Shown: positions 10,121 through 57,930 of the stretch, one piece after another
Layout: every line of letters starts with the position of its first letter
Position numbering within the stretch: the first letter of the stretch is position 1
NCBI GenBank assembly: GCA_020736575.1
Contig: JAGPYM010000024.1
Span: forward strand, 186,001-250,000
Direction: 5' to 3'
Length of the DNA: 64,000 nt
Origin: Thelonectria olida
Taxonomy: Eukaryota; Ascomycota; Sordariomycetes; Hypocreales; Nectriaceae
The notes under the pieces: generated by a model
The model's database searches: none
What the model saw: the letters and a program-made list of their open reading frames with translations, nothing else
What the model was told of the DNA's origin: nothing
Position numbers and translations under genes: made by a program

Positions 10121-10152
10121 TTAATCCATATGGAACGTTCCATATGGATTAA
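10121..10152. repeat. 32-bp perfect palindrome at the Copia target site
   Basis: Starting with the right copy of the target duplication, 32 bases form a perfect inverted repeat centred on AACGTT, with arms TTAATCCATATGG and its complement. It belongs to the hAT right subterminal region. It suggests the Copia landed at the foot of a hairpin-forming sequence. Confidence 0.75.
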
Positions 10153-29348: not shown

Positions 29349-29752
29349 GGCTCTATAACAGCTGGAACACCTCGTTGATTGCTAAAATTGCGATCAATGG
29401 CCAATCTTTTGCCCCGTGGCGTAACGGTTAGAGGTGCGCCGTGACAATCTCGAACTTGAACGTTCACCGACCGTACAAATCGAGTAAATGGGGAGACATT
29501 TGGGTTCAGGCGTTATACGTGTCACAACGTGTCAGAACGCGTCCGAGGTACTGCCTGATTAGATATGTTAGTGTTTGCGCAGAGATACGTAGCAAATATT
29601 AACGAAATATATCAGGGCACCCATACCCCTGACTAGCGTCCACGTCAATCCACATCTCAATCCACGAGCCCCCAACCGTGGATGGCGCCGTCTAGGCGCA
29701 CAGGTCCGTGCAGTCACAGGCCCGTACACTTAGTCAGCAGCACCCACTGTAA
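29349..29752. other. Non-coding stretch before the 67-bp repeat element
   Basis: No gene is seen. TGGCGTAACGGTTAGAGG at about 29417 looks like a tRNA A box, but no B box or cloverleaf follows at the right distance. Confidence 0.3.
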
Positions 29753-29819
29753 GGGAGCCCATAGGTTCGCGGTACCCGCGAATTTAAAATTTCACGGGTA
29801 CCGCGAAAATGACTAAGCA
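29753..29819 (+). repeat. Left 67-bp inverted repeat
   Basis: Exact reverse complement of 30356-30422, with internal hairpin potential. Confidence 0.9.
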
Positions 29820-30355
29820 TAAGTTTCGTACCTAAGGATGTTGTATTGCAATATAATCTTAACGCGCATACTGACTTGATACATTAATAGAGTTGCGAAA
29901 CGCACTTGACGGTAGTCTGATTTATTTTTCATTATTGGACTCAAGTCTCAACCGTGATATCAGTAGCAAAATATTGCCCAGCGATAGCCATCTAGAGGAC
30001 AGCAGCCTGTACCCTTGCTGCTTGTCCTAGCCAATTTTGGAACTTGCAATGAGTAATCTGTGTGTGCGGGGACTAGTTTTTAATGGCATTGCCTGCCTTT
30101 CAAGAGGTAAAATCGCAGTATTGCATTAAATTACGCTGTAGAGTATTGGTAATAGAGATGCTAGAAATATCCTGCTTAAAATAGAAATTATGGCAAAGTG
30201 TACCCGAAGAAGCAAAAAGAAGTGACGAGTGAAAAGGAGCCTGATGTCTTAAATCGGATTGATGCACTTGAACAGCAGTGCTATCCCAGCAGGCTCATAA
30301 GGCGAAACCAGTGTGAAAAATGAGAAATCGCTCGCAACTTAATTCTTATACACTG

Positions 30356-30422
30356 TGCTTAGTCATTTTCGCGGTACCCGTGAAATTTTAAATTCGCGGG
30401 TACCGCGAACCTATGGGCTCCC
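30356..30422 (-). repeat. Right 67-bp inverted repeat
   Basis: Exact reverse complement of 29753-29819. Its last 10 bases also form part of the 13-bp LINE target duplication ATGGGCTCCCAAG at 30413-30425. Confidence 0.9.
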
Positions 30423-30425
30423 AAG

Positions 30426-30941
30426 ACACTCTTTACACTCTTTACACTCTTTACACTCTTTACACTCTTTACACTCTTTACACTCTTTACACTCTTTACA
30501 CTCTTTACACTCTTTACACTCTTTACACTCTTTACACTCTTTACACTCTTTACACTCTTTACACTCTTTACACTCTTTACACTCTTTACACTCTTTACAC
30601 TCTTTACACTCTTTACACTCTTTACACTCTTTACACTCTTTACACTCTTTACACTCTTTACACTCTTTACACTCTTTACACTCTTTACACTCTTTACACT
30701 CTTTACACTCTTTACACTCTTTACACTCTTTACACTCTTTACACTCTTTACACTCTTTACACTCTTTACACTCTTTACACTCTTTACACTCTTTACACTC
30801 TTTACACTCTTTACACTCTTTACACTCTTTACACTCTTTACACTCTTTACACTCTTTACACTCTTTACACTCTTTACACTCTTTACACTCTTTACACTCT
30901 TTACACTCTTTACACTCTTTACACTCTTTACACTCTTTACA
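30426..30941 (+). repeat. 9-bp minisatellite, about 57 copies (LINE 1 5' region)
   Basis: The unit ACTCTTTAC is repeated about 57 times with no interruption seen. It sits between the insertion point and ORF1 and is the 5' UTR of the LINE. Copies 2 and 3 have only about 10 and 4 units. The open frames across it in all frames are an artefact of the 3-codon unit. Confidence 0.95.
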
Positions 30942-30985
30942 GGCGAAAGAAGGGGCTGGCGTTGCCGTGAGCGTTGCATCGCGAG

Positions 30986-32452
30986 ATGGATGCGACCGTC
31001 GAGGAGATCCTTGTCGAGGGTGGGGATTCGGTGGCCGCGACGCGTCGCTCGTCGAGAGCCGTGAAACCGACCGCGAAAGCCCAGAAAAGTGTGCAGGCAG
31101 CCGCAAGCAAGGCCGGAACGTCAAAGAATGTTGGCGCAGGGCAAATGGCAGCAGGCGACAACGATCGTGGCAATGCGGTCGAGGGATCACAGGCCATGGA
31201 GAGCGCGGTGAGCGGCAACGAATCGCTCATCCAAATGATGCTCCGGACGATGCTCCAGGAAACGTCGACCCATATAATGAGCGAACAGAAGAAGATGCTG
31301 CAGAGGCTCTGGGATGCGTTGCTGGAGAACCAGGGGTCGGCGACGAAGATGGTGAGCGACCAGCTGGAAATGATTCAACGACTCCAACAGGAGATACAGA
31401 CGGTCAGGGCTGAGGCAGCCGACGACCGGAAGAAGGCCGAAGAAACTAGACGTATGCATGAACAGACCGCCGAGGAACTAAAGGCGATGCGAGACACAAA
31501 CGAGCAACTTAGACAGGCGCAAGAACAAACCACGGAAGAGTTGAAACAACTGCGAGAACAGTTGGATATGGTGGCCCAAAGCATTGCGGCCAATAGTGCC
31601 CAGACGAGCCCTCAGCCATCGTATGCAGACGTAGCGCGTACTCCCCCAACAAGCCAACCAAGCAACATTCGAAGCCTATCGTCTATGCGAACAACACCGT
31701 CCGTGTTCACCGATACTCTCTTCTGTACTATCGACACGTCGCGCGTCAACGAGGAGGAGAAGGGCAAAGCACAAGTGGGAGGAATCCGACAGGCCATCGA
31801 GGAGGAGATGCGAAAGAAGGAGGGCCGACAGGACTGGAGGTGCGCAGCCGTGGTGAAGGACGCGAGGAACACAGACCGCATCAAGGTGATCTGTAGAGAT
31901 GAGGCAGAGATGCAGCTCGTCAAGGACACAGCCGAGAGGACTGCGGTCATGGGTGCGAGAGTACTCAGGGACCAACTCTACCCGGTCAAGGTAGACGGTG
32001 CGAACCGTACGGCGGTACTGGACTCGGACGGCAATATACTGCCAGGAGCGGTGGAGGCACTGGGCAGGGAGAACGAGGTGACGATCACCAAGATCCACTG
32101 GCTCAGCGATAGGGAGAACGGAAAGACGTACGGGTCAATGGTGATCTACGTGACGAAAGGAAACGATGCGAAGCGACTCCTCGAGGAGGGATACTTTCAC
32201 CTGGCCGGGGAGTCGGCCAACACCAACGTCTTTGAGCGGCGTCAAGGACCAGTTCAGTGCTACAAGTGCTGGAACATTGGCCACAAAGCATTCGCATGCA
32301 AGAAAGAACAGGTATGCGGAAGGTGTGCGCAGCAAGGACACCAGCACAGGCAATGCCAAGTAACAGAGCCATCATGTGCTACCTGCGGAGGGCCGCACGA
32401 AGCTTTCAGCCGAAACTGCCGGGCACGGAATGGACAGGGCGGTGCATACTAA
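30986..32452 (+). CDS. LINE ORF1 protein (gag-like, CCHC knuckles)
   Basis: 488 residues start at the first ATG after the tandem repeat (MDATVEEILVEGG). A long coiled coil covers roughly residues 90-200 (QEIQTVRAEAADDRKKAEET and following heptads). A conserved globular region follows, then three CCHC-type clusters near the C-terminus: CYKCWNIGHKAFAC, CGRCAQQGHQHRQC and CATCGGPHEAFSRNC. Such proteins coat the LINE RNA and assist target-primed reverse transcription. The end overlaps the start of ORF2 by 23 bp. Intact, with a protein identical to that of copy 2. Confidence 0.9.
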   Translation: MDATVEEILVEGGDSVAATRRSSRAVKPTAKAQKSVQAAASKAGTSKNVGAGQMAAGDNDRGNAVEGSQAMESAVSGNESLIQMMLRTMLQETSTHIMSEQKKMLQRLWDALLENQGSATKMVSDQLEMIQRLQQEIQTVRAEAADDRKKAEETRRMHEQTAEELKAMRDTNEQLRQAQEQTTEELKQLREQLDMVAQSIAANSAQTSPQPSYADVARTPPTSQPSNIRSLSSMRTTPSVFTDTLFCTIDTSRVNEEEKGKAQVGGIRQAIEEEMRKKEGRQDWRCAAVVKDARNTDRIKVICRDEAEMQLVKDTAERTAVMGARVLRDQLYPVKVDGANRTAVLDSDGNILPGAVEALGRENEVTITKIHWLSDRENGKTYGSMVIYVTKGNDAKRLLEEGYFHLAGESANTNVFERRQGPVQCYKCWNIGHKAFACKKEQVCGRCAQQGHQHRQCQVTEPSCATCGGPHEAFSRNCRARNGQGGAY

Positions 32453-35400
32453 ACTGCAAATATTCCAACTCAACGTACGAAAGAGAGACGTGGTCCAACT
32501 AAGTATGATGAACGACCGGGACCTTCAGCAGTACGCAGTGCTGGCTGTTGCCGAACCATACGCACGAACCATTGACGGTGCGGTGGTGACGACACCGAAC
32601 AGCCATAGCAACTGGACCAAGATGATACCGACGCAGACGCATGATGCGCAGTGGCCAATCCGTAGCATGCTATGGATTCGACGAGACATAGAGGCGGAAC
32701 AGATCCCGATACCATCAGCAGACCTAACGGGGGCGGTGCTGCGACTCCCCAATAGGGATGTGCTGGTGATCTCGGTGTATGTGGAGGGGAAAAACGAGGA
32801 GACGCTGCTTGCCACAATGGAGACGCTGCATACCCAAGTGACGACATTCCGCAACGCAACAGGGAGAAGAACGGATGTGATACTAGCGGGCGACTTCAAT
32901 CGCCACGACCAGCTCTGGGGAGGAGAAGACGTGACAGGCAGGAGGCAAGGTGAGGCGGAACCGATCGTCGGCCTCATGGAGGAGCACAGCTTGCTCAGCC
33001 TTCTCCCCCGGGGGACGAAGACGTGGGAAAACTCGGAGCACTCAAGCACGATAGATTTGATACTGACATCGGCCGAGTTGGCTGAGGAGATGGTAGCATG
33101 CGGGATCCACCCAACGGAACATGGTTCAGACCACAGAGCAATCCGAACCGAGTTCGACCTCAGTGTGCCAGAAAGGAGAGCCAGCGAACGACGACTGTTC
33201 AAGAATGCACCGTGGACAGCGATCAGAGAAAGGGTGGAGGAAAGGCTCCGATGGCTGCCATGGGATGACGACGTGCAGACCCAAACGGACATGCTCATGG
33301 GAGTTGTGCTCGAAGCAACCGACAAGCTCGTGCCACTAGCAAAGCCATCCCCGTACGCGAGGAGGTGGTGGACAACAGACCTAACCCGGCTTCGACGGGC
33401 GTACACGTACTGGAGGAACCAGGCGAGATCACAACGTCGAAGAGGTCAACGGTCGCCAGCTCTGGAAAAGAGAGCCAAAGAAGCAGGCAAAGAATACCAT
33501 GACACGATTAGGAAACAGAAGAAGGCACACTGGGATGACTTTCTCGCGGACGGAGCCAATATTTGGCAGTCGGCAAGATACCTCAAGCCCGGAGGCGATG
33601 CCATGAGCGACAAGATCCCACCGCTCAAGAGGCCGGATGGAACAAAGACAAAGGACAAGGCAGAGCAGGCAGAGGAGCTGCTTAGCGCTTTCTTCCCACC
33701 ACTGCCGGCCGTCATCGAAGATGAAGGGACCCGTCCCCGCCGGGTGGAGGTGGACATGCCGAACATAACCCTGGACGAGGTGGAGCAGAAAGTCATGGAG
33801 GCCAAAGCATGGAAAGCACCCGGGGAAGACGGCTTACCAGCGATGGTATGGAAACAACTTTGGCCAGTGGTCCAAGACCGGGTACTACACTTATTCCGAA
33901 CGTCATTGATAGATGGAGTACTGCCGGACCAGTGGAGAAGCGCCAAGATCATCCCGCTCAAGAAACCAGACAAGGGCGACTACGCGATCGCCAAGGCATG
34001 GAGACCCATCTCACTACTGTCGACGCTGGGTAAGATTCTCGAGGCGGTCGTGGCGGACAGGATCTCGTACGCCGTCGAGACGTTCGGACTCCTACCCACA
34101 AACCACTTTGGAGCAAGAAAACGGAGGTCGACAGAACAGGCACTGCTGCTCCTGCAGGAACAGATCTACAGGGCGTGGAGAAACCGCAAGGTGGTTAGTC
34201 TGATCAGCTTCGATGTCAAAGGCGCATACAACGGCGTATTCAAGGATCGACTTCTGCAGAGACTGGAGGCCAGAGGCATACCACGGTGGCTGGTCAAATG
34301 GATCGATGCTTTCTGCTCAAACCGCACAGCGAGCATCGTAGTGAACGACTACACGTCGGAGCGACAGCCGCTACCCCAAGCGGGCCTTCCGCAGGGGTCG
34401 CCGCTGTCGCCGGTGCTGTTCCTGTTTTTCAACGCGGATCTGGTACAGAGTAGAATCAACCCAACGGGCGGCTCGATGGCATTCGTCGACGACTACTCGG
34501 CCTGGGTGACGGGGCCAACAGCAGAGACAAATAGGGCAGGCATTCAGGCCATCATAGACAGAGCGCTGGACTGGGAAAGACGGAGCGGTGCAACGTTCGA
34601 AGGCGACAAGACGACTATCATACACTTCACGCGCAATGCCGAGCGCACCAGCGACACGCCATTCGTGATCAAAGGAAAAGAGGTCAGACCGACACCAAGC
34701 GCCAAGATCCTGGGAGTGGTGATGGATGCGAAGCTACGGTACAAGGAACACATGGCCAGAGCAGCAGCCAAGGGCTTGGCGGCCGCCATGTGCCTGAGGA
34801 GGCTCAAGATGCTATCACCTCGGACAGCAAGGCAGCTCTTCACGGCCACAGTGGCACCAACCATGGACTACGCCTCCACCGTGTGGGCGCATGCGTGCGG
34901 GATAAGAGAACTGAGTTGGCTGAACAGAGCACAGAAAGTAGGGGCGCAAGCGATCACCGGCGCCTTCCGAACGGCAGCGACGGCTGTGTTAGAAGCAGAG
35001 GCAAGCATCCCCACGATAAGGGAACGGCATGCCCGAGCCGGCACTAGGCTCTGGATCAACCTGCACACCCTACCAAAGACGCACCCACTCGCGGGTCTCA
35101 AGATGTCAAGCAGCCGGAGATACCTGTCTCCGATGAAGAAACTCGCGCTGACACAAGGAGGGAACGCAGCTGAACGAATGGAAACAATCCAGGCATATAC
35201 ACTACCACCATGGCACAGCCGCCTGCCCATCGGGTACGACCTCGACCGAGATATGGCGACAGAAACCGCCAACAGGATGGAGGGCATCCTGGTGGCAACC
35301 AGTGCCTCTGAGAAGGCAGGAAGGGTAGGCATGGGCGGCATCGTCCGTGATACTCTGAGCAACAGACCGGGCGAGGTGGTGGCCAGGTACTCGATTATGA

Positions 35401-36212
35401 TCGGTTCCAGAGACGACCAGAACGTGTACACGGCAGAGCTGGAAGCTATAGCGACGGCGCTGAGATGCATGCCGGATGGACTTCAACATCGACAGTTGAC
35501 TGTTATGACGAGCAGCCGATCAGCACTGCAAGTGATCGCGCGGCCGCAACAGCAGTCGGGACAATGTACCGTCCAGGAGATCCATAGACATGCCGAACGA
35601 CTCCAGAAGAGTGGCAACATCGTCAAAATGCTGTGGGTACCAGCCGGAGACAAGGACTTCCCGATGGGCAGCGAGGCAAAGACGGAAGCGCGAAGAGCCG
35701 CACGAGGAAGACAGAGACCGGAGAAACCAACATACCAAGCGTTTTCCACACGGATGAGACTAGCGATCGCACAGCAACAGCGGCAGAAGACCCTGCCCGA
35801 TGGAGTCGGAAAGTACGCGAGGCGAATCGACAGAGCGTTACCAGGTACACACACGCGCGCCCTGTATGATGGATTGAAGAGGCGCGAAGCAGACATGCTC
35901 TCCCAGCTTCGCACGGGAATGGCTAGGATCAACAGCTACCTGCATAGGATTGGAGCAGCAGAATCGGACAGATGCAACTGTGGACGAGCAGCAGAGACGA
36001 TGGAACATTTTCTGTTCCGGTGCACGAAATGGGACACGCAGCGAGAAGGCATGCGACAAGTCGGACAAACAATGATGGGAAACCTCTCGTTCTTTTTGGG
36101 CGGAAAGGCAGCATCGGATGGACCTAAATGGACACCTCACCTACAGGCGGTGCGGGCGGCGATTAAGTTCGTCATGGACACGAGGAGACTTGAAGCAAAC
36201 CAGACTAGATAA
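32430..36212 (+). CDS. LINE ORF2: endonuclease, reverse transcriptase, RNase H
   Basis: 1260 residues run from the ATG that overlaps the ORF1 stop. An APE-type endonuclease lies at about residues 8-230 (ILAGDFNRHDQLWGG, STIDLILTS, HGSDHRAI). The reverse transcriptase lies at about 450-730, with PLSPVLFLFFNADL and the catalytic FVDD box near residue 685. An RNase H-like region carries TAELEAIATAL near residue 1000. A C-terminal CCHC cluster CNCGRAAETMEHFLFRC sits near 1190. This order is that of the Tad1 clade. No stop or frameshift is present, so it is potentially active. Translation is probably by reinitiation after ORF1. Confidence 0.95.
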   Translation: MDRAVHTKLQIFQLNVRKRDVVQLSMMNDRDLQQYAVLAVAEPYARTIDGAVVTTPNSHSNWTKMIPTQTHDAQWPIRSMLWIRRDIEAEQIPIPSADLTGAVLRLPNRDVLVISVYVEGKNEETLLATMETLHTQVTTFRNATGRRTDVILAGDFNRHDQLWGGEDVTGRRQGEAEPIVGLMEEHSLLSLLPRGTKTWENSEHSSTIDLILTSAELAEEMVACGIHPTEHGSDHRAIRTEFDLSVPERRASERRLFKNAPWTAIRERVEERLRWLPWDDDVQTQTDMLMGVVLEATDKLVPLAKPSPYARRWWTTDLTRLRRAYTYWRNQARSQRRRGQRSPALEKRAKEAGKEYHDTIRKQKKAHWDDFLADGANIWQSARYLKPGGDAMSDKIPPLKRPDGTKTKDKAEQAEELLSAFFPPLPAVIEDEGTRPRRVEVDMPNITLDEVEQKVMEAKAWKAPGEDGLPAMVWKQLWPVVQDRVLHLFRTSLIDGVLPDQWRSAKIIPLKKPDKGDYAIAKAWRPISLLSTLGKILEAVVADRISYAVETFGLLPTNHFGARKRRSTEQALLLLQEQIYRAWRNRKVVSLISFDVKGAYNGVFKDRLLQRLEARGIPRWLVKWIDAFCSNRTASIVVNDYTSERQPLPQAGLPQGSPLSPVLFLFFNADLVQSRINPTGGSMAFVDDYSAWVTGPTAETNRAGIQAIIDRALDWERRSGATFEGDKTTIIHFTRNAERTSDTPFVIKGKEVRPTPSAKILGVVMDAKLRYKEHMARAAAKGLAAAMCLRRLKMLSPRTARQLFTATVAPTMDYASTVWAHACGIRELSWLNRAQKVGAQAITGAFRTAATAVLEAEASIPTIRERHARAGTRLWINLHTLPKTHPLAGLKMSSSRRYLSPMKKLALTQGGNAAERMETIQAYTLPPWHSRLPIGYDLDRDMATETANRMEGILVATSASEKAGRVGMGGIVRDTLSNRPGEVVARYSIMIGSRDDQNVYTAELEAIATALRCMPDGLQHRQLTVMTSSRSALQVIARPQQQSGQCTVQEIHRHAERLQKSGNIVKMLWVPAGDKDFPMGSEAKTEARRAARGRQRPEKPTYQAFSTRMRLAIAQQQRQKTLPDGVGKYARRIDRALPGTHTRALYDGLKRREADMLSQLRTGMARINSYLHRIGAAESDRCNCGRAAETMEHFLFRCTKWDTQREGMRQVGQTMMGNLSFFLGGKAASDGPKWTPHLQAVRAAIKFVMDTRRLEANQTR

Positions 36213-36504
36213 CTTACCAACTAACCACGTTTAGCGGCCAAATCTGGCGATACTAACATCAAACAGCCTCAAGTTGGCAGACCATGCTTCAGCTGCTGAA
36301 GATAGGATGCTGAACACTTGGAGAAATTGGCCTTCAAGCAGGCCTGTCACATCAGAGTCAAGCGAGGCGAGACCAACCAGCTGATGAGGAAGAGTGTGGG
36401 GCTTCTAGGTGATCTCGATCAATCGTTAGAACTGAAAATAGTTTAACGTCATGGCCCTATGAGGCTTGGTCCTCCCGGGCGTAATAAATTTCATTCATTC
36501 ATTC

Positions 36505-36924
36505 AAGCGCCTCCAAAACTGGAGGTATGGTGACCCGATTTTGGAGGCATAGGAGTCCGGAAATGGAGGTCAGTGTTCTGATGATAAGAACTTGACGGGA
36601 TCCAGTATTTCCTAAGGGCTGTGGTCGTATGTGCTGGTCAGTGGAACGTAGGCAGCTTATGTACAGTGTGAGTCCTCGTGGGAGAAGATAGTTGAGCAGA
36701 ATAAGTAAGATGGAGTGAAAGACCAGCTTTATGTATAGGAAGAAGAGAGAAAGGACTGCATGAACTAGCCAGCTAATGGCTACCCGCTCCCTCAGGGCGC
36801 GAGTTGACTGCATGAACATTGTGTTCTCCTATGTCTATATCTAAACTCTCCCTGCATAGTTCTACCTCGTTCATTTACTCTAGTCAATAACAGATGACAC
36901 TCTCACCCAAAGTGATTGAGAGGT
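36505..36924. other. Unique flank after LINE 1
   Basis: No gene is seen. It starts with AAGCGCCTCCAA (36505-36516), the complement of the sequence beside the 5' end of LINE 2 (48315-48326). It begins the 6.15-kb segment between the two LINEs. Confidence 0.6.
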
Positions 36925-37596
36925 CTATTCTCGGGAAATTCGAAATGCCATGATATAGCCCGATCGAGTCGAGTACTTGGCGACAGTGACATCCTCGGGA
37001 AGCAAATGCCCATCGCCATTAGCCAAAAGAGCCTCTGCAAGTGTGCACTTTCCTACAGTTGTAAAGCCCAATTTCTGGTACAAGTGTATCGTTGCCGTGT
37101 TTTCAGGCTTCACCATCAATCTCACAACAATAGTGGGCGAGAGCCGGTTTTCTCGGAGGTAACGTAAAGCTTCCTGACACAGCTTCTGTCCCAGACCCTG
37201 GCCACGATGCTCCGGAAGAGTAAACAGACTCAGCATCTGCCACCTTTCTTCTTGATCATCCGAGTCCGGAAGTGGTTGGCCTGATGCCTCCGGGAGAGTG
37301 AAGTCATGTCGACTGATGGGGCCTCGGATGGTGAGCTGGCCAATCCATTCGACTGAAGAAGCGCCAGCAGGGTCGATCTTCGTTGCAGAGCAAATGAAGT
37401 TTTCTCTGTCTTGTTCCTGCAGACGACTGCTCCAATCTGCCTCCGTCAATGCGGACTCAATTTCGTATGTCGAAGAGAAAGATTGAGGGGATGCTTGGAG
37501 TGCTTTGAGGCGTAAGTCGCGATATTGGCTTGCTAACGTCTCAACCGAATCTGTTTTAGAAACATGAAAGAAGGAATAGCGGCTTTCAGGCGTCAT
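36925..37596 (-). CDS. GNAT-family N-acetyltransferase
   Basis: An intronless frame of 223 codons starts at ATG 37596 (MTPESRYSFFHVSK); the frame continues open upstream but without another ATG. The acetyl-CoA-binding motif is visible as LFTLPEHRGQGLGQKLCQEA, with the Q/RxxGxG/A signature. Later NTATIHLYQKLGF forms the usual motif B. Substrate unknown; the family acetylates small molecules or protein N-termini. The gene looks intact and lies inside the segment bounded by the two LINEs. Confidence 0.85.
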   Translation of the reverse strand: MTPESRYSFFHVSKTDSVETLASQYRDLRLKALQASPQSFSSTYEIESALTEADWSSRLQEQDRENFICSATKIDPAGASSVEWIGQLTIRGPISRHDFTLPEASGQPLPDSDDQEERWQMLSLFTLPEHRGQGLGQKLCQEALRYLRENRLSPTIVVRLMVKPENTATIHLYQKLGFTTVGKCTLAEALLANGDGHLLPEDVTVAKYSTRSGYIMAFRISRE

Positions 37597-37879
37597 GGTG
37601 GCTTGAAGAAGCTCCGTAGCTACACCTAAAAACTTGATGGTTGGGAGGGGAGTCCGAGAAAGGGTCTCAAATGTGACGAGGTGCCGGTAGTCAAGAAATG
37701 GGAGGGGGCGATGGAGCTCATGGAAAGACGGAAAACTCGTCGACTTATATTTCACTCGTGTCCCGATTATTAATCACACGTCGATGGTGTCACTTGTACA
37801 GCCCACCTGCTACACCACGATGCCAACCGGCTCATTTCGTATACGAGCCCGACTAGCAACGCTGAATGTCTCCTCGCAC
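37597..37879. other. Promoter region of the GNAT gene
   Basis: No further gene is seen between the acetyltransferase start and the pogo element. It probably holds the promoter. Confidence 0.4.
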
Positions 37880-37881
37880 TA

Positions 37882-40107
37882 CCATCCAGGACCACCTAAT
37901 GGATAACCCCACCTAATGGATAACCAAAATTTCGCTCCTCCCATACAAAATCTAAATTTTCAATTGCACCGTATTCGGCCAGGAATGAAGATACTTGCAA
38001 ACTAAGACCTGTACTATATTGCTTTTTTCGTAGAATTTTCATATCGGCTTAAATTTTCCCCGTTCCGCCTCGTGGCCTGGTTCTCTAGCCCTTTGAACTT
38101 TTTTGCATTTCACCTCATGTACCCTAGGCGACTCCATCCACTCAAGCCGAGTTTTCACCTAATTTACTCGACGGAACTCCCTCCGCAATGGTTCGTCGTA
38201 ATTATACTGAAGATGACGTAGCTGAGGCTATATTAGATACCACTGATAGAGGCCTCTCACAGAATGAGGCGGCTCAGAAACGTGGAGTGCCTCAGTCGAC
38301 CCTTTCTGGACGACTTTCCGGTCAAGCGAGCAGGAATGAACGTATCCAGGCCCATCAGCGTATTTCCAAGAGCCAGGAGGAGACCCTCATTCGTTGGGTG
38401 TTGCGACAAGAGTCTCTGGGCTATGCTCTCTCGCACAGCCAACTCCGTGCCTGTGTCGAGGCCATCCTCAAACAACAAGGCGATAACAAGCCTCTGGGCA
38501 AGCACTGGACCACCAGGTTCGTCAAGCGTCACCTACAACTATCTACCAAGCTTGGGAAACGCCAGGAAGCCGCCAGGTTTGACGGATTTACTCCGAAGGC
38601 GGTCAATTGGTACTTCGATATTCGGGAGACGGAATACGGCTGGATCAAGCCTGAGAACACGGTTAACGTGGACGAGGGCGGCATAATGGCGGGTTTCGGT
38701 AAGCCTTCTACAAGTACTCTATGGGTTTCCATAGGTCATAACTAATTGGTTGTCCATGAGGCTTGGACAGCCTCGTAATCGGGAGCTCTGACCCGAAGAA
38801 GAAGGCGATGTTGAAAGGCGTCCAGTCGCGCACTTGGACCTCGTTTATTGAGGCTGTCACCGCAACTGGTCGCGCTTTAAAACCGGGCATAATCTTTAAG
38901 GGAAAAGAGCTACAGAAGCAGTGGTTTCTTAACGAATTCGGATTGATAGCGGACTGGCACTACATCACATCACCGAACGGCTGGACCGACAACCACATAG
39001 CTCTCGAGTGGTTGAAAGACGTCTATCTACCTCAAACAGAGCCTCGTGATGCATCAGATGCGAGACTCATTATCCTTGACGGTCACGGAAGCCATGCACA
39101 GGTGAGTCTTTTGGGGTTTTCACCGCAAAGTCTCCCGCTATAAGATCGCTGACGAGCATCCAGGATGAGTGGATAGCTACGTGCTTTCTGAACAACGTTT
39201 ACTGCTGTTACCTACCAGCACATTGTTCCTATGGTTTACAACCGTTAGACAATGGAATTTTTAATGTCATCAAAGGTGCGTATCGGAAAGAACTCCAAAA
39301 GCTGGCTAGTTTGACCGATTCTGCGCCGGTTGACAAAGTCAACTTTATTCGGGCATACGCGAAAGCCAGAGAGGCGGGCATGAGGAAGGAGATTATCTTA
39401 TCCGGCTGGAGATTTACTGGAAATTGGCCTATAAATCGTCACAAGGCTCTAACACATCCTGAAATTCAACCGGACAAAGAAAACGTGGTGGAACGGTTCA
39501 AGACGCCGAGCCCTCCTCCGTTGCACTCAGATGATACGCCGAAAACGAGCCGCCAGGTGAGAGATTTGGCCAAACACCGAAGTCGTCCGACCAGGCGGAA
39601 GTACAGTAAGATCGCAAAGGGGTTGGAAGCTTTAGAGATGAAGGTGGCCGTTCAGAATGCGCGGATTACTGGCCTCGAGGAGCAGATGGCCCAGCTGCGG
39701 CGAGGGAAGAAAAGAAAGGCGGTACCGAACCCGAACCGACGATTCATGGCTCTGGCGGAGGCTCTAGCGGCTGGAGAAGCTTTTCTTGACTCAAAGGAGG
39801 CAGAAATAGAGGAGGATGTGGACGAGGAGGTCGAGTCGGTGATTGAGGTGGGTGTCAGGTCAGAGGACGAAAGTGACGACTTTAGGGTCGTAACAAAGCA
39901 CTGCCAGCGCACACGGAGCGGTCGGGAGGTCAAAAAACCACGCAGAGAGTAAAAATTGATCAATTTTCTAGAGTTTCTCTCCAAAGCTTCGCTTTTTAAT
40001 TGACGACCTGGTGTTTTGTGCACGCGTCAAAATTTGGATTTTGTGTGGGCGGAGCGAAATTTTGGTTATCCATTAGGTGGGGTTATCCATTAGGTGGTCC
40101 TGGATGG
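37882..40107 (+). mobile_element. pogo/Fot-type DNA transposon (copy 2, intact)
   Basis: It is flanked by TA (37880-37881 and 40108-40109). The inverted repeats match exactly over about 57 bp from CCATCCAGGACC and then imperfectly for about 30 bp more. Each repeat contains CACCTAATGGATAACC twice in tandem. The interior is one transposase gene with two introns and no disabling change, so this copy may be autonomous. It is not closely related to the pogo at 14715-16574. Confidence 0.9.
38188..39952 (+). CDS. pogo-type transposase with two introns
   Basis: Exons 38188-38698, 38761-39101 and 39164-39952 give 546 residues in one frame. Both introns are 62 bp, with GTAAGC and GTGAGT donors, ACTAAT and GCTGAC branch sites and AG acceptors. 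The N-terminus has a helix-turn-helix (SQNEAAQKRGVPQSTLSGRL) and a CENP-B-type second DNA-binding part (GKHWTTRFVKRH). The catalytic aspartates are in VNVDEGGIMAG, LIILDGHGSHAQ and YGLQPLDNGIF. The C-terminus is coiled and acidic. The gene looks functional. Confidence 0.9.
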
Positions 40108-40109
40108 TA

Positions 40110-40392
40110 GTGATAAGCAATAAACCATCTCGCAAGAGAAAAAAAAGCGATGAATAAGACACTAGTTATAGCTGTCCGCTCCATCAAGGCGCGAGTTGCT
40201 GGCTCGAATAAGACACATTGCAGCACAGGTGGTCAACGAACTTTGAACAGAAAGGAGAAAGCGGTAATTACCAGAATAACTGCATTTGAACGGATACTGT
40301 GGTCAAAGTCTAGATTGTCACTATGTTGCTAGTCTGTCCCATAGATTGTGTTGACCCTTTCTATAAAAACCGTTGCCTGACTTTCTCTTGCT
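40110..40392. other. Short intergenic stretch
   Basis: Nothing was recognised; it probably contains the 3' end of the SDR transcript. Confidence 0.4.
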
Positions 40393-41309
40393 CTACCATG
40401 GGAGCTCCTTGCCATCGAAGCTGACGAAACGGCCCGAGGTTTCAGCCTTGGTGGAGTTTTCGACCTTGAATTGTACATGTTAGTCCGAGTTATGGTGAGT
40501 TGGAGTGAAGGATGGGAGTATTACCTGCTCGAAAATACCAGTGGAGCTCTCATCCTGCGTGGTGGGTGCTTCCTTCATGCCCAGAATCACGGCAACGCCG
40601 TTGCCCATATCAGTGCTAACCCAGCTTTGAAAATCGTTAGTACTATAAGGCAGATCTCAGAAGGGCAAGAAATTGCTTACCCAGGGTGAATAGGGAAGGC
40701 AGTCAGCGTGGGTTCCTCTTGGTGCACCTTTCCAACGAAAAAGTTGAGGGCTGCCTTGGACATTCCGTATGCAACATCCTGGATCTTCATCTCGCTTTGA
40801 AGCCCAACGCTGCCCAGCGTAGTAGACACGACGACGAACCGGGGGTTCGACGAGGCGAGAAGCAGAGAGCGCACGCCGAGGTACAAAGCGAAAGGACCAA
40901 CAGAGTTAACCTTGAAGTGGTCCTCCACCTCGTTGACAGGGGTCTCAGCGACAAGGTTCCAGTCCTTTCCAATGCCGGCGTTTGCAATCACGGTGTCGAG
41001 CTGTGTGATGCCGTAATGGGACTGGAGAGCTTTGGCTGCGGCCGCTGGGTCTGTAAGGGATGTACTGTCGATCTTGATAGTAATGAGACGGGATCCAGAT
41101 GCAACGGGGAGTTTGCGGATCTCGTCAACAGTCGGGTGTTCGACATCGCGGACCGCTGCAATAGCAGTGGTGTTGGGTCGGTTCAGATACAGCTTTAGGA
41201 GGTTCTTGCCGATACCTGGTGGTGGCATGATGGTTAGTAGAGCAGTGAAAGGAATTGGATTGCGATACACACCTCGGTTGGCTCCAGTGATCAAGACGTT
41301 GTAAGTCAT
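40393..41309 (-). CDS. Short-chain dehydrogenase/reductase (ketoreductase type)
   Basis: Four exons (41309-41273, 41215-40681, 40624-40525, 40464-40393) give 247 residues. Introns are 57, 56 and 60 bp. The NAD(P)-binding motif GANRGIG (residues 9-15) spans the first intron and is a strong check on that splice. NAGIG lies near residue 90, and YGMSK near 155-160 gives the catalytic Tyr and Lys. The sequence resembles the norsolorinic-acid ketoreductase (NOR-1/AflE-like) branch of SDRs, often found in or near secondary-metabolite clusters, but no polyketide synthase is in this window. A 12-bp tandem repeat stands in its 5' leader. It lies in the segment between the LINEs. Confidence 0.85.
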
Positions 41310-41368
41310 TGTGTTTGGTAATTGGTGGATGTCGAAAGTGGAAGAGGAAGAGTGAGTATGGTTAGAAT

Positions 41369-41462
41369 GTGTTGTTGGAAGTGTTGTTGGAAGTGTTGTT
41401 GGAAGTGCTGTTGTAAGTGCTGCTGGAAGTGCTGTTGGAAGTGTTGTTGGAAGTGATGCTGG
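41369..41462 (-). repeat. 12-bp tandem repeat in the 5' leader of the SDR gene
   Basis: The unit GTGTTGTTGGAA is repeated almost eight times with a few substitutions. In the sense of the gene it reads as CAACAAC-rich sequence 60-150 bp before the start codon. It could lie in the mRNA leader or the promoter. Confidence 0.8.
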
Positions 41463-42661
41463 GTAGATGGTAATAAGAGTCTCGAAGCCGTCCCTTTTAT
41501 ACCTGCCATCTTGCTTCACATGATGGTGTCTCCGTTTGATGACCAAGTATGTGTGGCGGAGGAGCCTCAACGGCTAGAACGGCTGCCAGCAAGACAGGAA
41601 CGCGGACTGCATTTCCAATGTGATGTTGATTAATCACTGCCTGATGCTGTGATCTGGCATCTAAGCATCTGCGTATCTGCCTTAAGTCCGGTAGTTGTCA
41701 ATTCGGACGGGCGTCCTGACACTTGCACTGCAATTTGTAAGCCTGAGGAGGGATTGTGCGGGACTTTTGAACGGGTTCACCGGTTGTAGAATCGAGGTTT
41801 CTCTGGAGATTGACTGTTCCTGAAGATAGCTTCAAAGGATGTCACTCCACTCAGCTCAAGCCCTGGTTACTTATCCCGGAATAGCAATACGAGAAAGCGA
41901 CTACCACATGGCGTCTCAGCCCTACGCGACTATTGATTGGATGGCATTAATGAATGATGCAGTAGGGCATGCAGTCTAATCTCGAGAGCTGCGGGCAACA
42001 AGCGGACAAGGTCGGACCAGAGCGGACCAGCGACGGACTTGTCGGGATAAGCGGAATAGGCGGGATAGCGGAGCGGCCCGACTCCTCGCGACATTATTTG
42101 TTTAGTCGACAGTGATGTCACCTTAGTAATTACTCGGACGACTTACCAGGGATCGAACAATCAATATTTGGTCAGCAAAATGGTGGTTTTATTAAAGAGT
42201 ACACCTGCACCCCGAGTAAAGACGTCTCCTCATTCTTCTGCAACCTTCGTGTTGTCCCCATATGTTCCTGGGCCATGTACTTTCGATATCTGGATCTACC
42301 CTTCATTGTCTTTCACACTTTGAGTATCTAAGACCTCTTTATAGAACCAATGTTAGACTGCGTATTCTAATACACCTATTGTGCCTCTCCGTTTCTTGTG
42401 AACTCTGGCGTTGGCAGTTTGGGCCAAAGCTAGGATCCAAGTTGACTGAAGTTGAGGCTACTCTCCAACAGCAGCATGCCATTTATTTCGAGATCCGTCC
42501 AGTATCTATTAATCAACGCCATGTCTTGTACTTACTACGTTCTACATTCCAGCGCAGGCACCCGAATAGCTCACCCCCTCGGACCCGAGTACGATGATCT
42601 CTCGACGGTGATTCGTCACTTTGGAAGCTGAGTCAGCGCAGCTAAGTCCTTGGGAGCCCAT
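41463..42661. other. Unique stretch up to LINE 2
   Basis: No convincing gene was recognised. The part nearest 41463 serves as promoter for the SDR gene. It ends in CTTGGGAGCCCAT (42649-42661), the complement of the sequence at the 5' end of LINE 1 (30413-30425). Confidence 0.5.
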
Positions 42662-42949
42662 GAATGAATGAAATTTATTACGCCCGGGAGGACCAAGCCT
42701 CATAGGGCCATGACGTTAAACTATTTTCAGTTCTAACGATTGATCGAGATCACCTAGAAGCCCCACACTCTTCCTCATCAGCTGGTTGGTCTCGCCTCGC
42801 TTGACTCTGATGTGACAGGCCTGCTTGAAGGCCAATTTCTCCAAGTGTTCAGCATCCTATCTTCAGCAGCTGAAGCATGGTCTGCCAACTTGAGGCTGTT
42901 TGATGTTAGTATCGCCAGATTTGGCCGCTAAACGTGGTTAGTTGGTAAG

Positions 42950-45900
42950 TTATCTAGTCTGGTTTGCTTCAAGTCTCCTCGTGTCCATGACGAACTTAAT
43001 CGCCGCCCGCACCGCCTGTAGGTGAGGTGTCCATTTAGGTCCATCCGATGCTGCCTTTCCGCCCAAAAAGAACGAGAGGTTTCCCATCATTGTTTGTCCG
43101 ACTTGTCGCATGCCTTCTCGCTGCGTGTCCCATTTCGTGCACCGGAACAGAAAATGTTCCATCGTCTCTGCTGCTCGTCCACAGTTGCATCTGTCCGATT
43201 CTGCTGCTCCAATCCTATGCAGGTAGCTGTTGATCCTAGCCATTCCCGTGCGAAGCTGGGAGAGCATGTCTGCTTCGCGCCTCTTCAATCCATCATACAG
43301 GGCGCGCGTGTGTGTACCTGGTAACGCTCTGTCGATTCGCCTCGCGTACTTTCCGACTCCATCGGGCAGGGTCTTCTGCCGCTGTTGCTGTGCGATCGCT
43401 AGTCTCATCCGTGTGGAAAACGCTTGGTATGTTGGTTTCTCCGGTCTCTGTCTTCCTCGTGCGGCTCTTCGCGCTTCCGTCTTTGCCTCGCTGCCCATCG
43501 GGAAGTCCTTGTCTCCGGCTGGTACCCACAGCATTTTGACGATGTTGCCACTCTTCTGGAGTCGTTCGGCATGTCTATGGATCTCCTGGACGGTACATTG
43601 TCCCGACTGCTGTTGCGGCCGCGCGATCACTTGCAGTGCTGATCGGCTGCTCGTCATAACAGTCAACTGTCGATGTTGAAGTCCATCCGGCATGCATCTC
43701 AGCGCCGTCGCTATAGCTTCCAGCTCTGCCGTGTACACGTTCTGGTCGTCTCTGGAACCGATCATAATCGAGTACCTGGCCACCACCTCGCCCGGTCTGT
43801 TGCTCAGAGTATCACGGACGATGCCGCCCATGCCTACCCTTCCTGCCTTCTCAGAGGCACTGGTTGCCACCAGGATGCCCTCCATCCTGTTGGCGGTTTC
43901 TGTCGCCATATCTCGGTCGAGGTCGTACCCGATGGGCAGGCGGCTGTGCCATGGTGGTAGTGTATATGCCTGGATTGTTTCCATTCGTTCAGCTGCGTTC
44001 CCTCCTTGTGTCAGCGCGAGTTTCTTCATCGGAGACAGGTATCTCCGGCTGCTTGACATCTTGAGACCCGCGAGTGGGTGCGTCTTTGGTAGGGTGTGCA
44101 GGTTGATCCAGAGCCTAGTGCCGGCTCGGGCATGCCGTTCCCTTATCGTGGGGATGCTTGCCTCTGCTTCTAACACAGCCGTCGCTGCCGTTCGGAAGGC
44201 GCCGGTGATCGCTTGCGCCCCTACTTTCTGTGCTCTGTTCAGCCAACTCAGTTCTCTTATCCCGCACGCATGCGCCCACACGGTGGAGGCGTAGTCCATG
44301 GTTGGTGCCACTGTGGCCGTGAAGAGCTGCCTTGCTGTCCGAGGTGATAGCATCTTGAGCCTCCTCAGGCACATGGCGGCCGCCAAGCCCTTGGCTGCTG
44401 CTCTGGCCATGTGTTCCTTGTACCGTAGCTTCGCATCCATCACCACTCCCAGGATCTTGGCGCTTGGTGTCGGTCTGACCTCTTTTCCTTTGATCACGAA
44501 TGGCGTGTCGCTGGTGCGCTCGGCATTGCGCGTGAAGTGTATGATAGTCGTCTTGTCGCCTTCGAACGTTGCACCGCTCCGTCTTTCCCAGTCCAGCGCT
44601 CTGTCTATGATGGCCTGAATGCCTGCCCTATTTGTCTCTGCTGTTGGCCCCGTCACCCAGGCCGAGTAGTCGTCGACGAATGCCATCGAGCCGCCCGTTG
44701 GGTTGATTCTACTCTGTACCAGATCCGCGTTGAAAAACAGGAACAGCACCGGCGACAGCGGCGACCCCTGCGGAAGGCCCGCTTGGGGTAGCGGCTGTCG
44801 CTCCGACGTGTAGTCGTTCACTACGATGCTCGCTGTGCGGTTTGAGCAGAAAGCATCGATCCATTTGACCAGCCACCGTGGTATGCCTCTGGCCTCCAGT
44901 CTCTGCAGAAGTCGATCCTTGAATACGCCGTTGTATGCGCCTTTGACATCGAAGCTGATCAGACTAACCACCTTGCGGTTTCTCCACGCCCTGTAGATCT
45001 GTTCCTGCAGGAGCAGCAGTGCCTGTTCTGTCGACCTCCGTTTTCTTGCTCCAAAGTGGTTTGTGGGTAGGAGTCCGAACGTCTCGACGGCGTACGAGAT
45101 CCTGTCCGCCACGACCGCCTCGAGAATCTTACCCAGCGTCGACAGTAGTGAGATGGGTCTCCATGCCTTGGCGATCGCGTAGTCGCCCTTGTCTGGTTTC
45201 TTGAGCGGGATGATCTTGGCGCTTCTCCACTGGTCCGGCAGTACTCCATCTATCAATGACGTTCGGAATAAGTGTAGTACCCGGTCTTGGACCACTGGCC
45301 AAAGTTGTTTCCATACCATCGCTGGTAAGCCGTCTTCCCCGGGTGCTTTCCATGCTTTGGCCTCCATGACTTTCTGCTCCACCTCGTCCAGGGTTATGTT
45401 CGGCATGTCCACCTCCACCCGGCGGGGACGGGTCCCTTCATCTTCGATGACGGCCGGCAGTGGTGGGAAGAAAGCGCTAAGCAGCTCCTCTGCCTGCTCT
45501 GCCTTGTCCTTTGTCTTTGTTCCATCCGGCCTCTTGAGCGGTGGGATCTTGTCGCTCATGGCATCGCCTCCGGGCTTGAGGTATCTTGCCGACTGCCAAA
45601 TATTGGCTCCGTCCGCGAGAAAGTCATCCCAGTGTGCCTTCTTCTGTTTCCTAATCGTGTCATGGTATTCTTTGCCTGCTTCTTTGGCTCTCTTTTCCAG
45701 AGCTGGCGACCGTTGACCTCTTCGACGTTGTGATCTCGCCTGGTTCCTCCAGTACGTGTACGCCCGTCGAAGCCGGGTTAGGTCTGTTGTCCACCACCTC
45801 CTCGCGTACGGGGATGGCTTTGCTAGTGGCACGAGCTTGTCGGTTGCTTCGAGCACAACTCCCATGAGCATGTCCGTTTGGGTCTGCACGTCGTCATCCC

Positions 45901-46732
45901 ATGGCAGCCATCGGAGCCTTTCCTCCACCCTTTCTCTGATCGCTGTCCACGGTGCATTCTTGAACAGTCGTCGTTCGCTGGCTCTCCTTTCTGGCACACT
46001 GAGGTCGAACTCGGTTCGGATTGCTCTGTGGTCTGAACCATGTTCCGTTGGGTGGATCCCGCATGCTACCATCTCCTCAGCCAACTCGGCCGATGTCAGT
46101 ATCAAATCTATCGTGCTTGAGTGCTCCGAGTTTTCCCACGTCTTCGTCCCCCGGGGGAGAAGGCTGAGCAAGCTGTGCTCCTCCATGAGGCCGACGATCG
46201 GTTCCGCCTCACCTTGCCTCCTGCCTGTCACGTCTTCTCCTCCCCAGAGCTGGTCGTGGCGATTGAAGTCGCCCGCTAGTATCACATCCGTTCTTCTCCC
46301 TGTTGCGTTGCGGAATGTCGTCACTTGGGTATGCAGCGTCTCCATTGTGGCAAGCAGCGTCTCCTCGTTTTTCCCCTCCACATACACCGAGATCACCAGC
46401 ACATCCCTATTGGGGAGTCGCAGCACCGCCCCCGTTAGGTCTGCTGATGGTATCGGGATCTGTTCCGCCTCTATGTCTCGTCGAATCCATAGCATGCTAC
46501 GGATTGGCCACTGCGCATCATGCGTCTGCGTCGGTATCATCTTGGTCCAGTTGCTATGGCTGTTCGGTGTCGTCACCACCGCACCGTCAATGGTTCGTGC
46601 GTATGGTTCGGCAACAGCCAGCACTGCGTACTGCTGAAGGTCCCGGTCGTTCATCATACTTAGTTGGACCACGTCTCTCTTTCGTACGTTGAGTTGGAAT
46701 ATTTGCAGTTTAGTATGCACCGCCCTGTCCAT
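42950..46732 (-). CDS. LINE ORF2 (copy 2)
   Basis: 1260 residues with the same protein sequence as ORF2 at 32430-36212: APE-type endonuclease, reverse transcriptase with FVDD box, RNase H-like part and CCHC tail. Intact. Identity with copy 1 over both proteins means very recent duplication or gene conversion between the inverted copies. Confidence 0.95.
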   Translation of the reverse strand: MDRAVHTKLQIFQLNVRKRDVVQLSMMNDRDLQQYAVLAVAEPYARTIDGAVVTTPNSHSNWTKMIPTQTHDAQWPIRSMLWIRRDIEAEQIPIPSADLTGAVLRLPNRDVLVISVYVEGKNEETLLATMETLHTQVTTFRNATGRRTDVILAGDFNRHDQLWGGEDVTGRRQGEAEPIVGLMEEHSLLSLLPRGTKTWENSEHSSTIDLILTSAELAEEMVACGIHPTEHGSDHRAIRTEFDLSVPERRASERRLFKNAPWTAIRERVEERLRWLPWDDDVQTQTDMLMGVVLEATDKLVPLAKPSPYARRWWTTDLTRLRRAYTYWRNQARSQRRRGQRSPALEKRAKEAGKEYHDTIRKQKKAHWDDFLADGANIWQSARYLKPGGDAMSDKIPPLKRPDGTKTKDKAEQAEELLSAFFPPLPAVIEDEGTRPRRVEVDMPNITLDEVEQKVMEAKAWKAPGEDGLPAMVWKQLWPVVQDRVLHLFRTSLIDGVLPDQWRSAKIIPLKKPDKGDYAIAKAWRPISLLSTLGKILEAVVADRISYAVETFGLLPTNHFGARKRRSTEQALLLLQEQIYRAWRNRKVVSLISFDVKGAYNGVFKDRLLQRLEARGIPRWLVKWIDAFCSNRTASIVVNDYTSERQPLPQAGLPQGSPLSPVLFLFFNADLVQSRINPTGGSMAFVDDYSAWVTGPTAETNRAGIQAIIDRALDWERRSGATFEGDKTTIIHFTRNAERTSDTPFVIKGKEVRPTPSAKILGVVMDAKLRYKEHMARAAAKGLAAAMCLRRLKMLSPRTARQLFTATVAPTMDYASTVWAHACGIRELSWLNRAQKVGAQAITGAFRTAATAVLEAEASIPTIRERHARAGTRLWINLHTLPKTHPLAGLKMSSSRRYLSPMKKLALTQGGNAAERMETIQAYTLPPWHSRLPIGYDLDRDMATETANRMEGILVATSASEKAGRVGMGGIVRDTLSNRPGEVVARYSIMIGSRDDQNVYTAELEAIATALRCMPDGLQHRQLTVMTSSRSALQVIARPQQQSGQCTVQEIHRHAERLQKSGNIVKMLWVPAGDKDFPMGSEAKTEARRAARGRQRPEKPTYQAFSTRMRLAIAQQQRQKTLPDGVGKYARRIDRALPGTHTRALYDGLKRREADMLSQLRTGMARINSYLHRIGAAESDRCNCGRAAETMEHFLFRCTKWDTQREGMRQVGQTMMGNLSFFLGGKAASDGPKWTPHLQAVRAAIKFVMDTRRLEANQTR

Positions 46733-48176
46733 TCCGTGCCCGGCAGTTTCGGCTGAAAGCTTCGTGCGGCCCTCCGCAGGTAGCACATGATGGCTCTGTT
46801 ACTTGGCATTGCCTGTGCTGGTGTCCTTGCTGCGCACACCTTCCGCATACCTGTTCTTTCTTGCATGCGAATGCTTTGTGGCCAATGTTCCAGCACTTGT
46901 AGCACTGAACTGGTCCTTGACGCCGCTCAAAGACGTTGGTGTTGGCCGACTCCCCGGCCAGGTGAAAGTATCCCTCCTCGAGGAGTCGCTTCGCATCGTT
47001 TCCTTTCGTCACGTAGATCACCATTGACCCGTACGTCTTTCCGTTCTCCCTATCGCTGAGCCAGTGGATCTTGGTGATCGTCACCTCGTTCTCCCTGCCC
47101 AGTGCCTCCACCGCTCCTGGCAGTATATTGCCGTCCGAGTCCAGTACCGCCGTACGGTTCGCACCGTCTACCTTGACCGGGTAGAGTTGGTCCCTGAGTA
47201 CTCTCGCACCCATGACCGCAGTCCTCTCGGCTGTGTCCTTGACGAGCTGCATCTCTGCCTCATCTCTACAGATCACCTTGATGCGGTCTGTGTTCCTCGC
47301 GTCCTTCACCACGGCTGCGCACCTCCAGTCCTGTCGGCCCTCCTTCTTTCGCATCTCCTCCTCGATGGCCTGTCGGATTCCTCCCACTTGTGCTTTGCCC
47401 TTCTCCTCCTCGTTGACGCGCGACGTGTCGATAGTACAGAAGAGAGTATCGGTGAACACGGACGGTGTTGTTCGCATAGACGATAGGCTTCGAATGTTGC
47501 TTGGTTGGCTTGTTGGGGGAGTACGCGCTACGTCTGCATACGATGGCTGAGGGCTCGTCTGGGCACTATTGGCCGCAATGCTTTGGGCCACCATATCCAA
47601 CTGTTCTCGCAGTTGTTTCAACTCTTCCGTGGTTTGTTCTTGCGCCTGTCTAAGTTGCTCGTTTGTGTCTCGCATCGCCTTTAGTTCCTCGGCGGTCTGT
47701 TCATGCATACGTCTAGTTTCTTCGGCCTTCTTCCGGTCGTCGGCTGCCTCAGCCCTGACCGTCTGTATCTCCTGTTGGAGTCGTTGAATCATTTCCAGCT
47801 GGTCGCTCACCATCTTCGTCGCCGACCCCTGGTTCTCCAGCAACGCATCCCAGAGCCTCTGCAGCATCTTCTTCTGTTCGCTCATTATATGGGTCGACGT
47901 TTCCTGGAGCATCGTCCGGAGCATCATTTGGATGAGCGATTCGTTGCCGCTCACCGCGCTCTCCATGGCCTGTGATCCCTCGACCGCATTGCCACGATCG
48001 TTGTCGCCTGCTGCCATTTGCCCTGCGCCAACATTCTTTGACGTTCCGGCCTTGCTTGCGGCTGCCTGCACACTTTTCTGGGCTTTCGCGGTCGGTTTCA
48101 CGGCTCTCGACGAGCGACGCGTCGCGGCCACCGAATCCCCACCCTCGACAAGGATCTCCTCGACGGTCGCATCCAT
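46710..48176 (-). CDS. LINE ORF1 protein (copy 2)
   Basis: 488 residues, identical in protein sequence to ORF1 at 30986-32452: N-terminal MDATVEE, coiled coil, three C-terminal CCHC clusters. It is intact and overlaps ORF2 by 23 bp. Confidence 0.9.
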   Translation of the reverse strand: MDATVEEILVEGGDSVAATRRSSRAVKPTAKAQKSVQAAASKAGTSKNVGAGQMAAGDNDRGNAVEGSQAMESAVSGNESLIQMMLRTMLQETSTHIMSEQKKMLQRLWDALLENQGSATKMVSDQLEMIQRLQQEIQTVRAEAADDRKKAEETRRMHEQTAEELKAMRDTNEQLRQAQEQTTEELKQLREQLDMVAQSIAANSAQTSPQPSYADVARTPPTSQPSNIRSLSSMRTTPSVFTDTLFCTIDTSRVNEEEKGKAQVGGIRQAIEEEMRKKEGRQDWRCAAVVKDARNTDRIKVICRDEAEMQLVKDTAERTAVMGARVLRDQLYPVKVDGANRTAVLDSDGNILPGAVEALGRENEVTITKIHWLSDRENGKTYGSMVIYVTKGNDAKRLLEEGYFHLAGESANTNVFERRQGPVQCYKCWNIGHKAFACKKEQVCGRCAQQGHQHRQCQVTEPSCATCGGPHEAFSRNCRARNGQGGAY

Positions 48177-48220
48177 CTCGCGATGCAACGCTCACGGCAA
48201 CGCCAGCCCCTTCTTTCGCC

Positions 48221-48314
48221 TGTAAAGAGTGTAAAGAGTGTAAAGAGTGTAAAGAGTGTAAAGAGTGTAAAGAGTGTAAAGAGTGTAAAGAGTGTAAAGA
48301 GTGTAAAGAGTGTC
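48221..48314 (-). repeat. 9-bp minisatellite, about 10 copies (LINE 2 5' region)
   Basis: Same unit as at 30426-30941 (minus strand here), about 94 bp long. It marks the 5' end of LINE 2. Confidence 0.95.
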
Positions 48315-48368
48315 TTGGAGGCGCTTATTCCAGCTGTAAGGTGGGGAACACCCGTCATGCAACTTGAG

Positions 48369-51319: not shown

Positions 51320-51328
51320 CAACTTGAG

Positions 51329-52176: not shown

Positions 52177-52253
52177 CTAAGACTTTGTGTGGACATACAC
52201 AGTCTCACAAAAAAAGACCCCCAGCTAAGGTAGTAGAAGCGGGACGATAGAGG

Positions 52254-52291
52254 ACACTCTTTACACTCTTTACACTCTTTACACTCTTTTA
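52254..52291 (+). repeat. 9-bp minisatellite, about 4 copies (LINE 3 5' region)
   Basis: Same ACTCTTTAC unit as in copies 1 and 2, with the fewest copies of the three. Confidence 0.9.
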
Positions 52292-52335
52292 GGCGAAAGG
52301 ATAGGTTGGGGCTGCCGTGAGCGTGGCATCGTGAG

Positions 52336-57637: not shown

Positions 57638-57930
57638 ACATATTAACACCCAGAACTAGAAAATACTAACACAACACAGCCTCGTTTTGACAGACCATGC
57701 TTCAGCTGCTGAGGATAGGATGCTGAACACTTGGAGAAATCGGCCTTCAAGCAGGCCTGTCAGACAGACTCAAGCGAGGCTAGAAGAAAGCGATTTAAGA
57801 AGAGAGGGTGGGGCTTTATTTTGTGGTTAGGATCAACACGGCGGAAGTGTAAATAGCATAGCGTCTTCCATGGCCCTATGAGATCTGTTCTCCCGGGCGT
57901 AATAAATCTACTACTACTAAGACTTTGTGT

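Follow-up and report, generated by a model that had tools for sequence, protein, structure and literature searches.

In comparisons of human with chimpanzee, inversions between pairs of L1 or of Alu elements have been described whose ancestral state was deduced from the loss of matching target duplications, which measure 7-20 bp in L1 and Alu (PMC2603318, in the sections drawn on here), and the Galileo inversion 2z3 of Drosophila buzzatii was identified with exchanged duplications (PMC2775673, likewise in part). Here we analysed a 64,000-nucleotide stretch of contig JAGPYM010000024.1 (the window) from Thelonectria olida, an ascomycete of the Nectriaceae, in which two full-length long interspersed nuclear elements (LINEs) of opposite orientation enclose a segment of 6,157 bp (36505-42661). 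We consider it quite probable that, compared with the order at the time of the LINE insertions, this segment is reversed, and that homologous crossing-over of the inverted copies turned it. The reversal relative to the insertion-time order follows from two observations: the target duplications of the LINEs are reciprocal, and one insertion site (site B), once turned, is continuous with a LINE-free copy elsewhere in the genome.

LINE1 (30426-36504, plus strand) is a full-length non-long-terminal-repeat (non-LTR) retrotransposon with a 5′ array of 57 units of 9 bp, the open reading frames ORF1 and ORF2 (endonuclease and reverse transcriptase) and an ATTC tail. LINE2 (42662-48314, minus strand) is also a full-length copy, carries 10 units of the 5′ array and equals LINE1 in the rest except for one tail unit. 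PF14529 and PF00078 exceeded their cut-offs in both copies, corresponding to the ORF2 endonuclease and reverse transcriptase. The two LINEs had been called identical in the initial annotation, which is accurate for a stretch of 5,654 bases shared without a mismatch on opposite strands (30849-36502 versus 48313-42660) and inaccurate for the 5′ arrays (57 versus 10 units) and the tails, which are one unit apart. Since the shared body shows no difference at all, the insertions of LINE1 and LINE2 are young.

Each LINE is flanked by short words that find their mates at the other copy. The 13-bp duplication A is represented by its 5′ copy ATGGGCTCCCAAG in front of LINE1 (30413-30425, plus strand) and by its 3′ copy behind LINE2 (42649-42661, minus strand; CTTGGGAGCCCAT on the plus strand), whereas the 12-bp duplication B is represented by its 3′ copy AAGCGCCTCCAA behind LINE1 (36505-36516, plus strand) and its 5′ copy in front of LINE2 (48315-48326, minus strand; TTGGAGGCGCTT on the plus strand). 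Both crosswise matches are exact, and ATGGGCTCCCAAG and AAGCGCCTCCAA occur nowhere else in the window. Within LINE1 or within LINE2 the two flanks have no common word of 6 bp or more, and scripted turning of 36505-42661 restored perfect duplications at both LINEs. The crosswise matches, the mismatch within each LINE and the effect of turning had been claimed in the initial annotation, whose four flank words were recovered at exactly the positions it gave. By a first-order Markov estimate, with seven offsets allowed for each match, the joint chance of both matches is ~9e-14. When the 5′ flanks of 23 LINEs were paired with the 3′ flanks of 21 (483 pairings) in 40 letter-shuffled sets, a shared word of 12 bp was reached in none of the sets, the maximum being 11 bp in three of them.

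Site B, the target of LINE2, provided a test of orientation. It lies within a repeat with a head resembling 5S ribosomal RNA (rRNA), found in the window at 36505-36632 and 48327-51964 and elsewhere at C165:5620-6426 and C2:959400-959540; the repeat may be an element that derives from 5S genes or targets them. Its inner half (36505-36593, minus strand) adjoins 39 nt (36594-36632, minus strand) that equal the first 39 nt of an intact 5S rRNA gene standing beside a paralogous GNAT acetyltransferase gene on C104. This head was recognised through the intact gene (Rfam, 80 bits); an Rfam search of the window returned a single match, mir-3136, at 26.8 bits versus a gathering score of 86, and did not report the 39-nt head. 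The outer half (48327-48367, plus strand) is interrupted by a Mutator-like element (MULE; 48368-51320, minus strand), a DNA transposon with at least 17 near-identical copies, and resumes at 51321-51964 (plus strand), colinear with C165 from ~6252 down to 5620.

The inner (36505-36638) and outer (48315-48348) parts match adjoining places on C165 that overlap by 12 bases, and duplication B is present there once, with one C-to-T difference. The LINE-free joined site B aligned with C165 ungapped over 173 bp (147 identical), and the turned site without LINE2 and the MULE remained colinear with C165:5620-6426 for 823 bp (605 identical, 20 gap positions). Of the 196 mismatches in the site B alignment, 154 are C-to-T or G-to-A in C165, a pattern that we read as resembling repeat-induced point mutation (RIP); the G+C content of the first 9.9 kb of C165 is 29%. 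By these alignments, site B lay ancestrally inside the 5S-headed repeat, which is continuous only in the turned orientation.

A genome-wide search with a 721-bp query of the turned join, the join standing at query position 300, returned C165 over query 167-667, 367 bp across the join, and C2 (959400-959540) over query 167-307. Since C2 crosses the join by only 7 bp, the test at site B rests on C165. The two present-order joins, likewise placed at 300, were searched with 40 of 42 and 5 of 5 candidates scored and common words skipped. No scored match genome-wide crossed either of them by more than 5 bp, that longest crossing coming from a copy on C113 of the miniature inverted-repeat transposable element (MITE) next to LINE1, and the C165 matches to both began exactly at 301 (301-422 and 301-617). 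The inversion put forward in the initial annotation thus gains support from the C165 copy, which reads through site B without a LINE in the turned orientation; the opposite case, which would have spoken against it, namely a LINE-free site in the present orientation, was sought in this one genome, and none crossing by more than 5 bp was found among the scored matches.

These observations are consistent with the following course of events. A LINE with the 57-unit array would have inserted beside a MITE end, giving rise to duplication A, and one with the 10-unit array would have inserted in the opposite orientation inside the 5S-headed repeat, giving rise to duplication B. The two copies may then have paired and crossed over somewhere within their more than 5.5 kb of identity. 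In such an exchange the LINEs would have swapped their 3′ flanks and retained their 5′ flanks, and the halves of the 5S-headed repeat would have come to lie on either side of the segment. Which array came with which insertion can still be read, since array and 5′ flank have remained together. The inversion is younger than both LINE insertions. We infer that the event is chromosomal and not just a product of the assembly, and that its cause was crossing-over instead of another repair route.

How far flank words can be trusted in this LINE family was judged from copies elsewhere in the genome. With 32 of 202 candidates scored, 43 matches were listed, of which 26 were merged into 21 copies with both ends (the window pair and 19 others), two further ones were 5′ ends only, and 15 were left out as pieces or related LINEs. 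Self-matching duplications were found in only two of the 19 others, C98:12k (13 bp; listed at 100% identity) and C92:109k (14 bp), which serve as method controls; the own flanks of the other 17, including four of the six copies that keep both 5′ array and tail, had no match of 12 bp or more. Since unmatched flanks are this common in the family, it is the reciprocity that carries the argument, and the only reciprocal pair among the 21 copies examined is that of the window. In the real flank set the 483 pairings gave shared words of 14, 13, 13, 12, 12 and 12 bp, followed by a single 11-bp word (between C118:133k and C82:99k) and four 10-bp words, the last five being mostly or wholly MITE end; apart from the two self-matching copies, the window pair and C128:54k, C128:109k and C93:80k, the remaining 14 of the 21 copies had no partner word of 12 bp or more.

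A second candidate LINE exchange is the pair C128:54k (minus strand) and C128:109k (plus strand), inverted copies at 54255-59947 and 109634-113648, about 50 kb apart, whose junctions share a 12-bp word crosswise in only one of the two directions. The 5′ flank of C128:109k is also found at C93:80k (80694-84708), and 3′ flanks are common to C93:191k and C93:80k, to C101:44k and C101:245k, and to C113:2.6k and C109:67k; part of this sharing may come from segmental duplication or decay, not from exchange. Related LINEs were also met with. One in the window (52177-57930) is 75% alike over about 4 kb, has extra sequence 5′ of a short 9-bp array and keeps its own duplication of up to 14 bp, a further method control, and of two related copies on C87 only one carries a duplication of its own (12 bp). 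Three copies of the MULE (48368-51320, C98:9060-12010 and C92:115237-118139) lie within about 17-54 bp of a LINE 5′ end, which reflects either an insertion preference of one element for the other or chance.

The alternative that survives best, although we regard it as rather unlikely, is a misjoin in the assembly, by which the chromosome would keep the original order and the inner segment would have been joined the wrong way through the identical repeat. The LINE identity of more than 5.5 kb would allow it, and the perfect duplications restored on turning are expected equally from a wrong join. We take the genome to be one of a set from root-associated fungi, presumably published in a paper whose main text does not give the species name. 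As described in part of that paper, the genomes were sequenced by PacBio with shearing to 3, >10 or 30 kb and size selection at >10 kb, and assembled with Falcon into 9-919 contigs per genome (PMC8664821). Reads from DNA sheared to 3 kb could not span a LINE, whereas reads of more than 10 kb from the size selection would span the 6.1-kb element; moreover, the window is free of N, and the 52.5 Mb of the assembly fall into 165 contigs, in keeping with long-read sequencing.

It is less probable still, and in our view hardly to be expected, that both orientations coexist, the segment flipping between the inverted LINEs in culture or in the species and the assembly having caught one of them. Perfect inverted repeats of such length, separated by 6 kb, favour flipping in general, and the shared LINE bodies show no sequence difference; against this, the assembly shows one orientation only. 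Finally, the notion that no inversion occurred, the LINEs having inserted without duplications of their own and the crosswise matches being coincidental, retains practically no probability: the lack of own duplications in 17 of the 19 other copies and the MITE-derived bases of duplication A would suit it, but the joint chance and the shuffled sets contradict it, and it is refuted at site B, where the C165 copy is continuous only when the segment is turned.

Several points nevertheless weigh against an inversion by crossing-over, or at least reduce its force. The basis is one assembly of one strain, and C165 is a paralogue, not an allelic site. Crossing-over predicts chimeric copies, and the bodies of LINE1 and LINE2 hold no difference that could show chimerism; because they do not differ, the exchange point cannot be placed. 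Bare flank mismatch is weak evidence in this family, since it is shared by 17 of the 19 other copies. Duplication A is less specific genome-wide than its 13-bp length suggests, because 10 of its 13 bases belong to the end of a MITE that is itself repeated (29753-30422). No unoccupied copy of site A turned up among C104 and the eight other MITE copies compared: C104 follows the inner segment colinearly to window position 42646 and diverges beyond it, and the flanks of the eight MITE copies differ from site A. The case at site A consists of the 13-bp word alone.

The MITE-like element itself (29753-30422, plus strand) has perfect terminal inverted repeats of 67 bp, and LINE1 is inserted 3 bp past its right end. 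The terminus ATGGGCTCCC stands at, or at most 4 bp from, a LINE at five ends, namely those of both window copies, C82:99k, C83:47k and C118:133k; in C82:99k and C83:47k it is in the 3′ flank and in C118:133k in the 5′ flank, which suggests that the LINE targets MITE ends by preference. MITE duplications were considered as a second test of site A and rejected. Duplications of 9 bp are present in four of the eight other MITE copies (L020, L021, L024 and L026), the window MITE has none (once the segment is turned, CCACTGTAA stands on its left and AAGGACTTA on its right), and its left flank (29672-29762) has a counterpart without the MITE on C118 (110316-110396) that runs on differently. The flank of the MITE was probably altered by some other event and does not test the inversion, and the element is perhaps the site of a further, separate rearrangement.

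As described in the initial annotation, the segment carries a GNAT gene, a pogo-like element and a short-chain dehydrogenase/reductase (SDR) gene; none of their open frames is cut by the segment ends. The GNAT acetyltransferase gene lies at 36925-37773 (minus strand) and the SDR gene at 40677-41573 (minus strand); between them is a pogo/Tc5-like DNA transposon (37877-40112, plus strand) with 84-bp inverted repeats and near-identical copies elsewhere, which the initial annotation called intact and whose coding region is spread over three open frames. A paralogue of the GNAT-SDR region (window 36594-42642) was found at C104:204837-212580 with 71-78% DNA identity and colinear intergenic sequence; it lacks the pogo element, has a MULE inside and ends in the intact 5S gene, and its GNAT gene is B0T10DRAFT_522313 of T. 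olida. The gene order on C104 was rejected as a guide to orientation, since its left and right flanks, aligned with each outer side of the window, scored at shuffle level (12.5-14.0 versus shuffle means of 12.3-13.1). Further from the segment, direct repeats of about 184 bp at 4442-4625 and 9941-10123, 99.5% alike and 5.5 kb apart, look like a young LTR retrotransposon, and 60854-61800 is a tandem array whose units recur about every 126 bp.

Because identical LINEs with open frames sit in a genome with a RIP-like pattern, the insertions and the inversion appear to be recent, and no effective sexual cycle seems to have passed since. A broader reading is possible, if doubtful: the LINE family may form a standing recombination network that keeps re-cutting repeat-rich contigs of T. 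olida, with the window inversion as the freshest of several, among them the one-sided exchange of the C128 pair and the copies that have a single flank in common, and with flips in clonal growth, the last because two identical open-frame LINEs are free of the RIP-like mutation found in other parts of the genome. The window offers a clean case of a LINE pair that likely turned a gene-bearing fungal segment, and a single assembly suffices to read it; it illustrates that, where a paralogous repeat has stayed unoccupied, target duplications can reveal the ancestral order of a breakpoint without a second strain. If the arrangement is an assembly error, crosswise duplications offer an inexpensive check for misjoins at inverted repeats.

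The literature searched yielded no paper on LINE-mediated inversion in Thelonectria, which is no proof of absence. Non-LTR elements of fungi are usually of the Tad-like kind. The window LINEs resemble fungal LINE-type elements in the endonuclease and reverse transcriptase domains of ORF2, in duplications of 12-14 bp and in the simple-repeat tail, and are unlike them in the 5′ end, which is a 9-bp array. The footprint of exchanged duplications is already established, and the window adds a clean fungal case to it, unless, as is less likely, a misjoin has produced that signature. As in the primate L1 and Alu inversions, in so far as the cited sections describe them, an inverted retrotransposon pair stands at the breakpoints, no match is found within either copy, and the ancestral order is read from the duplications (PMC2603318). 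There the ancestral state was obtained from duplications, BLAT and polymerase chain reaction between two species, whereas in this fungus a paralogous repeat of the same genome supplies the ancestral join, and the shared LINE body is identical. With Galileo 2z3, again from a partial account, the window shares the oppositely oriented copies, the exchanged duplications and the single target copy in the non-inverted arrangement (PMC2775673). Galileo, however, is a DNA transposon whose duplications measure 7 bp, whose copies are visibly chimeric and for which non-inverted chromosomes were at hand, while the copies in the window are too alike to show chimerism.

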